NCBI RefSeq assembly: GCF_001761325.1
Contig: NZ_CP017478.1
Coordinates: 1,308,001-1,372,000 of the forward strand
Direction of reading: 5' to 3'
Length of the DNA: 64,000 bases
Origin: Urechidicola croceus
GTDB taxonomy: Bacteria; Bacteroidota; Bacteroidia; Flavobacteriales; Flavobacteriaceae
Shown here: positions 52,656-55,724 of the stretch, piece by piece
Layout of the letters: each line of letters starts with the position of its first letter
Position numbering within the stretch: the stretch's first letter is position 1
Made by a program: the position numbers and the translations under genes
Notes under the pieces: model-generated
Told to the model about the DNA's origin: nothing
Databases searched by the model: none
The model's input: the letters and a program-made list of their open reading frames with translations, nothing else

Positions 52656-54044
52656 TTACTTTGGTTTTATATTCTGATTGACTCTAAATAGGTTATTTGG
52701 GTCATATTTTCCTTTTATTTTAGTCAATCTATCATAATTGTGCTTGTAACTAGCCTGAACACGTTCTTGTCCTTCATCCATCATAAAATTTGAATAGGCT
52801 CCACCAGAAGAATACGGATGTAAGGCAGACCAATAATCTTTACACCAATTTGTAATTTTATCAGCATCTTTGGGATATGGAGACACACCAACTATTACTC
52901 CAGCATATTTTGAATCTCTATATGCCCATGGAGTTTCATCTGCTCCAACTCTACTTGCTGCACCACTTATTGGATATAAATGCATTTGAGATAATGGTGT
53001 TGGAATTTTTGAACCGAATTTTAAATGCTCTGCTCTTAATTCCGAGCCTAATTCTTTAAAGAAATCTGCTCTCCAATACCATTGTAAGCCATGTGGTAAC
53101 ATTCCATCAAACATAGTTTGAATTGCAGGGTAAGGCATTTCTCCAACATGAGCAAATACAGGATTTAAAGCCAATACAGGTCTGAATAATTCATCAAATT
53201 CAGTTTGACTTCCGGTATAACACCAAACAATTCCACAAAATTTTTTATTATGTAATGATTCTGGAAATGGTGGTCCTGGAATTATCATTTCTGCAATAAA
53301 ACCATTTAACTCATCTGGTGCATTATGAATAAAATTATGATACCACTTCATTATCTCTTCAGTTTGTTCTACTGGCCATAAAGTTGGACCTCCAATAACA
53401 TTTTTTACAGCATGTGCTTGAAATTTAAATGATGTCACAATTCCAAAGTTCCCACCTCCTCCACGGATAGCCCAAAACAAATCTGGATATTGATCTTTAT
53501 TTACAGTAACAATAGATCCATCTGCTAAAACCATATCTGCTTCTAACAAGTTATCAATTGTCAATCCATATTTACGCGACAAATGACCTACACCTCCACC
53601 AAGAGTCAATCCTCCAACTCCTGTACTTGAAATGATTCCTGCTGGAACTGCAAGTCCAAAAGGATGGGTTGCATGATCCACTTCTCCCCAAAGATTTCCT
53701 CCACCAACTAATACAGTATTATCTGATGTATCAACTCTAACAAATTTTATTCCTGACAAATCAATTACGAGTCCGTTATCACATATTCCTAATCCACCTC
53801 CATTGTGACCTCCACCCCTAACCGCAATTAATAAATCATTTTCTCTTCCAAAATTTACAGATGCTATAACATCTGCAACATCTACACACATCGCAAATAA
53901 ATCTGGATGTTTATTTATCATTCCATTATACACTTTTCTAGTTTCGTTATAATCATCATCTGATGGCATAACAATATCTCCACGTAATTGTGAAGCAAAC
54001 TCCTCAATAACTAAAGTTTCTAAATTTTTTACTGACTTTTTCAT
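52656..54044 (-). CDS. FAD-binding oxidoreductase (berberine-bridge type)
   Basis: 462 aa, PCMH-type FAD-binding domain plus C-terminal berberine/BBE segment. Signatures: LIAVRGGGHNGGGLGICDNG near residue 83 (the His of the GGH motif is the usual covalent FAD site), PAGIISSTGVGGLTLGGGVG near 145, FWAIRGGGGNFGIVTSF near 195, and the BBE tail GGAYSNFMMDEG with YDRLTKIKGKYDPNNLFRVN. Such enzymes oxidise sugars, alcohols or alkaloid-like substrates with O2. No signal peptide, so it is cytosolic. It lies downstream of the split AraC regulator on the same strand, a candidate target of it. Confidence 0.92.
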   Translation of the reverse strand: MKKSVKNLETLVIEEFASQLRGDIVMPSDDDYNETRKVYNGMINKHPDLFAMCVDVADVIASVNFGRENDLLIAVRGGGHNGGGLGICDNGLVIDLSGIKFVRVDTSDNTVLVGGGNLWGEVDHATHPFGLAVPAGIISSTGVGGLTLGGGVGHLSRKYGLTIDNLLEADMVLADGSIVTVNKDQYPDLFWAIRGGGGNFGIVTSFKFQAHAVKNVIGGPTLWPVEQTEEIMKWYHNFIHNAPDELNGFIAEMIIPGPPFPESLHNKKFCGIVWCYTGSQTEFDELFRPVLALNPVFAHVGEMPYPAIQTMFDGMLPHGLQWYWRADFFKELGSELRAEHLKFGSKIPTPLSQMHLYPISGAASRVGADETPWAYRDSKYAGVIVGVSPYPKDADKITNWCKDYWSALHPYSSGGAYSNFMMDEGQERVQASYKHNYDRLTKIKGKYDPNNLFRVNQNIKPK

Positions 54045-54212
54045 TTTTTGGTATTTTACTGGTTAGTAGCTCGTTAATTTATATTAAACAAATATTTAAC
54101 ACTACAAAATTGTGATATATATACCTGAAAAAATGCTACTTTTAGTTCAAAAAAGTATACAATTGATTCTTTTTTAATTTTAAAATAAAAAGTTCATTAT
54201 TGAATAATTTAT

Positions 54213-54824
54213 TTATTGAGTATTCTGTTTAGAATAAACTGAAGGTAAGATTCCATAAACTTCTTGAAAACGTTTTGAGAAATATGCGGGACTATTAAAT
54301 CCTGTTTGAAAGGCTATTTCTGATATATTCTCATCGTTTTTATTCAACAGATTTAAAGCCTTAATTAATCGATACTCTTTTAAAAACACATTTAAAGATT
54401 TACCAGTAGTAGCAATCATTTTTCTGTAAAACTGAGATTTACTAATTCCAAGTTCTTTTGTAAAATAGTCAATGCTTAATGTTGGATTATTCCATTCTTT
54501 CTCAATATAATCCATTAATGAGTTAATAAATCTCTCTTCGCTTGAATTTAAAACATTTAAAAATTCTCCACTTAATTCAATATTTAAATTTTCGCTTTCA
54601 TATAAGTCTTTAACTTCTGATGACACAGCAATATTTTTTATAGTTGTATCACACAAACGATCTGCCATTTTTATGGTATCCTCAAAAATACTTTCTTTAT
54701 CTGTCACAGGAATTCCAGCACTAATACCTATTCTAAATTCTATATCTGGGGTAATAACAAAATTATATATTTCCATTATTTTTTTGGCACAATCAACGGC
54801 ACTTGTCACAGTATCAAAAGACAT
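54213..54824 (-). CDS. Cyclase-like / AraC regulator, 3' part of a split gene
   Basis: 203 aa as an independent ORF. Residues about 1-75 resemble the end of a class III nucleotidyl-cyclase fold (EFRIGISAGIPV, IKMADRLCDTTIKNIAVSSE), and residues about 105-200 are an AraC helix-turn-helix (LGISKSQFYRKM, then ISEIAFQTGFNSPAYFSKRF). The reading frame stays open upstream of this ATG to about 54962, encoding HNGRIVKQEIDRFL, which matches the rest of the cyclase-like fold. The ATG therefore is not the natural start, and the protein is the C-terminal part of a DUF4242-cyclase-AraC regulator whose first part lies in another frame. Confidence 0.75.
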   Translation of the reverse strand: MSFDTVTSAVDCAKKIMEIYNFVITPDIEFRIGISAGIPVTDKESIFEDTIKMADRLCDTTIKNIAVSSEVKDLYESENLNIELSGEFLNVLNSSEERFINSLMDYIEKEWNNPTLSIDYFTKELGISKSQFYRKMIATTGKSLNVFLKEYRLIKALNLLNKNDENISEIAFQTGFNSPAYFSKRFQEVYGILPSVYSKQNTQ

Positions 54825-54956
54825 TAGAAATCTATCTATTTCTTGCTTTACAATTCTGCCATTATGTATAGATATACATTTAGAAATTGATTTGTGATAT
54901 CCACGAATTGCAGTATTTAAGGTTTTAATTTCTGATGTTCTTAAAACCTCTTTTTG
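54825..54956 (-). other. Frame-crossing region with slip site and hairpin
   Basis: Cryptic coding region joining the two halves of the regulator. On the minus strand the DUF4242 frame reads ATC-AAA-AAG-AGG-TTT-TAA (54958-54941). A -1 slip at A-AAG, or one extra A in the run at 54951-54955, continues into the AraC frame as EVLRTSEIKTLNTAIRGYHK and on. A perfect 9-bp inverted repeat (arms 54941-54949 and 54920-54928, 12-base loop) begins right after the AAG. Confidence 0.7.
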
Positions 54957-55309
54957 ATTTTAACAACAGTCAGTGTCCTAAATGCAGGATCATTAATAAT
55001 ATTGAGAGTCGTTTTTTTAGATTTTTTAGGATCTTCAATTCTACCTAAAAAAGATTCAACAATTGTATCGTTTACCTCAATAATACGTTTTGGAACTGCA
55101 CCATGTGCTTGATTATGTAAATCTATGATTGCCTGCTTATTAGAAGCATTAATTAAACAAAATGCAGTTTGCCGTTTTTCATCACACCAATAGGTCAAAC
55201 CACGACAATTGTATTTGTGTTCAATTTCTAAATCAGCTTGATGCATTTCAGCAACGTGAGCAGCTGATACTCCATCTGGTAGTTCGTGAAAATCCATGAA
55301 TATTGGCAT
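54941..55309 (-). CDS. DUF4242 (nickel-binding-like) domain, 5' part of a split gene
   Basis: 122 aa from the ATG at 55309 (MPIFMDFHELPDGVSA), which matches the family start. An upstream ATG (55333) adds 8 residues. DUF4242 proteins are small ferredoxin-like-fold proteins, some reported to bind nickel. Here CRGLTYWCDEKRQTAFCLIN and HGAVPKRIIEVND are the core. It ends at a TAA only 9 bases after an A-rich slip site. In relatives I recall, this domain is the N-terminus of one long chain with the cyclase-like and AraC domains, so the stop here separates what is normally joined. Confidence 0.8.
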   Translation of the reverse strand: MPIFMDFHELPDGVSAAHVAEMHQADLEIEHKYNCRGLTYWCDEKRQTAFCLINASNKQAIIDLHNQAHGAVPKRIIEVNDTIVESFLGRIEDPKKSKKTTLNIINDPAFRTLTVVKIKKRF

Positions 55310-55361
55310 AGTATGATTTTTTAATTTATACATTCAGGGAGTTGACAACAATATACGAATA

Positions 55362-55385
55362 TTCATAGTATTAATATTCTATGAA
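55362..55385. promoter_or_regulatory. Inverted repeat upstream of the DUF4242-AraC gene
   Basis: TTCATAG-N10-CTATGAA, a perfect 7-bp dyad about 55-75 bases upstream of the DUF4242 start. It is a candidate operator, possibly for autoregulation by the AraC domain. Confidence 0.35.
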
Positions 55386-55418
55386 CAAATATTTTAAAAT
55401 TTAAATAAATTCTAAACA

Positions 55419-55450
55419 AAAAAAAATCCCCAACTTTCGTTGAGGATTTT
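55419..55450 (-). terminator. Intrinsic terminator of rpmE2
   Basis: On the minus strand the stem AAATCCTCAAC / GTTGGGGATTT with loop GAAA is followed by a long U run. It lies about 23 bases after the rpmE2 stop. Confidence 0.85.
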
Positions 55451-55472
55451 AAATATTTTTTTAACTAAAATA

Positions 55473-55724
55473 TTACTTTTTAAATTTAGCATATTTAGTC
55501 TTGAACTTATCAATACGTCCTGCAGCATCGATTAATTTTGTTTTACCAGTATAGTAAGGGTGAGATGTTCTTGAAATCTCTAATTTTACTAATGGATATT
55601 CAACACCATCAACTTCAAGAGTCTCTTTAGTGTTTGCAGTTGAGCGAGTTAAAAACACATCATTGTTTGACATATCTTTAAATGCTACCATTCTATAATT
55701 TTCAGGGTGGATACCTTTTTTCAT
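55473..55724 (-). CDS. rpmE2: Ribosomal protein L31 type B
   Basis: 83 aa, 50S subunit protein L31 of the longer B type: [17 protein letters not shown] at the start, [20 protein letters not shown] (about 51-70) in the middle. It has no cysteine, so it is the zinc-independent (C-minus) form. This form takes over under zinc limitation in species with both paralogues; whether this genome has the other form is not visible. It has its own promoter and terminator. Confidence 0.97.

Follow-up and report, generated by a model that had tools for sequence, protein, structure and literature searches.

A single-base frameshift as the probable cause of a split DUF4242–AraC regulator gene in Urechidicola croceus

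A change of frame that does not cluster with homologous ones is regarded as an indel mutation or a sequencing error, and the runs cited for slippage comprise eight or more bases (PMC3711429). For recoding in E. coli, Z_ZZN tetramers require a strong stimulator (PMC4066793). Among proteins of the DUF4242/SCO4226 type, SCO4226 itself binds nickel (PMC4186839). We found no literature that combines DUF4242 with AraC. The gene considered here carries both domains in two different frames of the window, i.e. the whole 64-kb stretch of DNA that was analysed. Its features are as follows.

54941..55309, minus strand: first ORF, with a DUF4242/SCO4226-like domain and the first strand of the following domain (ORF list, Pfam PF14026)
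54213..54953, minus strand: second frame (-1), with the remaining cyclase-like region and an AraC-type helix-turn-helix (stop-free over 246 codons)
54944..54959, minus strand: stretch holding the frame change, limited by the -1 frame stop at 54962-54960 and the frame-0 stop at 54943-54941; missing base most likely beside 54949-54950
54950..54956, minus strand: C_AAA_AAG, the proposed slip site, read here as two ordinary Lys codons (sequence)
54920..54949, minus strand: perfect 9-bp inverted repeat AGGTTTTAA/TTAAAACCT (arms 54941-54949 and 54920-54928) with a 12-base loop, not conserved

The first ORF, for which an in-frame ATG at 55333 is also a possible start, matches PF14026 (E 2.8e-20, Pfam) and is 78–87% identical to the corresponding part of close homologues. 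Of PF14026 and NF033706 (the SCO4226 nickel-binding equivalog), the window protein matches only the broader Pfam domain, its NF033706 score of 44.3 bits falling below the cut-off of 125. Frame 0 ends with GTT GTT AAA ATC AAA AAG AGG TTT TAA, and the -1 frame is open from the AAA at 54953 to its own TAA, which ends at 54213, with its earliest ATG only at 54824, 44 codons in. This second frame matches HTH_18/HTH_AraC (E 2.4e-18, Pfam) and is 54–60% identical to close homologues, while the cyclase likeness of the region comes from an adenylate cyclase model of NCBIfam, which it matches weakly. Given the stops that limit each frame, the change from one to the other is confined to the 16 bases between them. 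An earlier note on this DNA had described this layout, i.e. a DUF4242 ORF that stops at TAA, an uninterrupted continuation in the next frame into cyclase-like and AraC parts, and an A5 run (54951-54955) with AAA-AAG in the overlap; the sequence and the ORF list bear out each of these elements. The genome holds no DUF4242 copy besides this gene, and neither an Rfam search of the window nor a search for plasmid relatives gave a match.

With a probability of roughly 0.92, we consider the split to be a single-base frameshift, i.e. an indel mutation or a sequencing error, in an otherwise ordinary and undecayed regulator gene. The main evidence comes from homologues. Using an intact homologue as the query against 400 genomes of the same family, we find that the 78 strongest non-self homologues (down to E 2.4e-73, counted from the match table) are all full length and in a single frame, with no frame change at the same site, and that the window gene is the only one among the strongest matches to appear as two adjacent pieces. 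Likewise, each of the 25 homologues found first and checked by hand or script has one continuous frame of about 360–390 codons across the linker. The named close homologues come from Aequorivita. Intact homologues are therefore present and the break is found only in the window gene; together with the lack of a conserved site, this is the pattern that PMC3711429 takes to indicate an indel mutation or sequencing error. Two short homologues (L022 and L023) were considered as further split genes and rejected, as they have no DUF4242 frame upstream and represent natural DUF4242-less forms.

The earlier note had also offered a pseudogene or one missing A in the A5 run. A single missing base is supported; its position is more likely to be the codon after AAA-AAG (AAG to AG) than the A5 run, as judged from the aligned sequences. 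Specifically, the linker consensus in close homologues is K-x-K/R-x-L-R, and the column next to the two Lys codons holds K/R in all 7 of the closest homologues and, for the most part, K in the wider set that shares the linker. The most telling DNA match, L110, reads AAA AAG AAG GTT TTA AGA at the place where the window reads AAA AAG A-G GTT TTA AGA, a difference of exactly one A, and the alignment gap also falls just after AAA-AAG against L115, L113, L112, and L107. The missing base is thus most likely just 3' of the slip site; a slip at A_AAG, or an extra A in the run, would give Glu in this basic column. Alignments with L038, L039, and L108 place the gap inside the A run, which makes the exact base uncertain. 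Loss of a T (AGG TTT TTA) was tried as well and rejected: the resulting R-F fits the basic column, but the next column fits worse than the K-V of L110 and L115.

The ancestral gene would have been a single continuous frame of about 365 codons encoding a DUF4242, cyclase-like, and AraC regulator. The linker would then have lost a single base, the likeliest being an A from the third Lys codon (AAA AAG AAG to AAA AAG AG), so that translation stops two codons later. The product would be the DUF4242 part only, and very little or none of the DNA-binding part would be made. The absence of any other stop downstream and the preservation of conserved residues there make it probable that the loss is recent. 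The downstream part retains 34 of the 36 near-invariant positions, which is within what intact homologues show, and its branch length is ordinary; hence the loss is recent, or is an artefact, or, least likely, is tolerated through recoding. The split itself, the unbroken frame of the relatives, and the missing conservation of slip site and hairpin are direct observations; we infer the identity of the base and the loss of regulator function, and put a real mutation at about 60% against about 40% for an assembly error. Two points count against the single-base frameshift: an undecayed downstream part is also expected of a functional recoded gene, and the exact missing base is uncertain given the gap in the A run.

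We also scanned a 464-kb sample of the genome and 400 kb of a genus mate for direct frame switches. These number 92 and 79, respectively, an equal rate per kb, and the ten that were inspected are mostly ordinary gene junctions, which argues mildly against a generally error-ridden assembly. One of the ten, near 2962 on the minus strand (L065; about 172962 of G000:C1), consists of two overlapping frames that resemble the orfA/orfB overlap of an IS3-type transposase, where a -1 frameshift would be a more usual find in this genome.

Very unlikely, though the best placed of the alternatives, is a settled split, in which the cell makes and uses two distinct proteins, one with DUF4242 alone and one with AraC. 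Stand-alone SCO4226-type proteins are known (PMC4186839), and the family includes a natural subfamily of about 260–275 aa with cyclase-like and AraC parts and no DUF4242 (L021, L022, and L023 are listed with it, along with e.g. G420, G285, and G417). However, a product started at the first ATG of the second frame, 44 codons in, would lack the start of the cyclase-like domain, which L022 and L023 keep.

Less likely still is the programmed frameshift proposed in the earlier note, considered here as a species-specific -1 ribosomal shift at A_AAG through which a single mRNA would give both the complete AraC regulator and the DUF4242 protein on its own. A -1 slip does restore the frame, the downstream frame is undecayed, and a short stem follows the site. 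The genome encodes a tRNA-Lys with anticodon TTT, so slipping is not impossible, and this tRNA-Lys(UUU) could re-pair from AAG to AAA. This proposal is not borne out by the homologues: the 78 strongest are never split, neither site nor stem is conserved among relatives, and the Glu that a slip inserts misfits the basic column. The motif is also a tetramer, of the kind that needs a strong stimulator in E. coli (PMC4066793), and not an X_XXZ_ZZN heptamer.

Proposed slip sites of this kind are common in the window. The 54 ORFs that reach 150 aa contain AAA-AAG in frame at 24 places and NNA-AAG at 120, and CAAAAAG is not over-represented in the window. Aligning homologues also reveals that the slippery motif is not conserved, and that where relatives carry this motif or a stronger one their frames are intact. 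The canonical, stronger heptamer A_AAA_AAG lies at the same place inside intact frames in 4 of 16 close relatives (L110, L112, L113, and L115), where a slip would meet a stop within about 20 codons.

The perfect 9-bp inverted repeat directly after the AAG is present in the sequence as the earlier note had stated. Such stems are not rare: perfect ones with 9 bp or more (loop 3–20) number 23 in the 64 kb of the window, compared with 12.6 +/- 4.1 in simulated sequence, and the gene itself contains another of them at about 55022. In the 16 close relatives, the longest stem after the site is 4–7 bp and none exceeds 7 bp, i.e. no comparable hairpin is kept among the homologues. The predicted minimum-energy fold (z -1.48) forms another stem, with the slip site inside it, and so buries the site where a stem after a spacer would be expected. 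Between the relatives' stems and this fold, we find no conserved, stable downstream stimulatory structure.

It is extremely unlikely that the A run undergoes transcriptional slippage or phase variation during replication, so that some mRNAs or cells regain the frame: an A5 run does lie inside the overlap, but five A are short next to the runs of eight or more cited in PMC3711429, and A6 and A7 runs upstream in the same ORF leave its frame undisturbed.

The surroundings of the gene bear on its function and origin. More than 30 relatives have an FAD-linked oxidoreductase gene beside the regulator gene, which suggests that the regulator controls the oxidoreductase gene in response to a ligand of the DUF4242 domain. 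In genus mates an intact regulator occupies the same chromosomal position, and the order of L31 gene, DUF4242/AraC regulator, and FAD-linked oxidoreductase gene is kept in them (window 52656-55724, minus strand; L019, L020, L021, L126, and L128). Between the L31 gene and the regulator, downstream of the former, lies a terminator-like stem with a T tail (window 55423-55450, minus strand). The genus mates' regulator belongs to a different clade, and that of the window groups with Aequorivita and others; a foreign version may have replaced the regulator at the same place.

A programmed frameshift, if true, would make this one-component regulator an unusual example of recoding. The main value of the present analysis is one of correction, as a Lys-codon overlap followed by a short A+T-rich repeat in an A+T-rich genome is easily mistaken for a recoding signal, and comparison with homologues tells such a signal from a chance overlap.

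As in the -1 frameshift of IS3-type orfA/orfB, the window gene has a pair of Lys codons where tRNA-Lys could re-pair in the -1 frame; unlike that system, its site is not conserved, no stimulator is shown, the product is not a transposase, and the homologues are unsplit. The closer match is to the DUF4242, cyclase-like, and AraC regulators of Flavobacteriaceae, e.g. that of Aequorivita antarctica (L038), which have the same domain order and linker and adjoin the same FAD-linked oxidoreductase gene. Identity between the A. antarctica regulator and the window gene is 84% over the DUF4242 part and 58% over the remainder, and regulators of this type form one continuous frame, whereas the window gene is short of one base in the linker.
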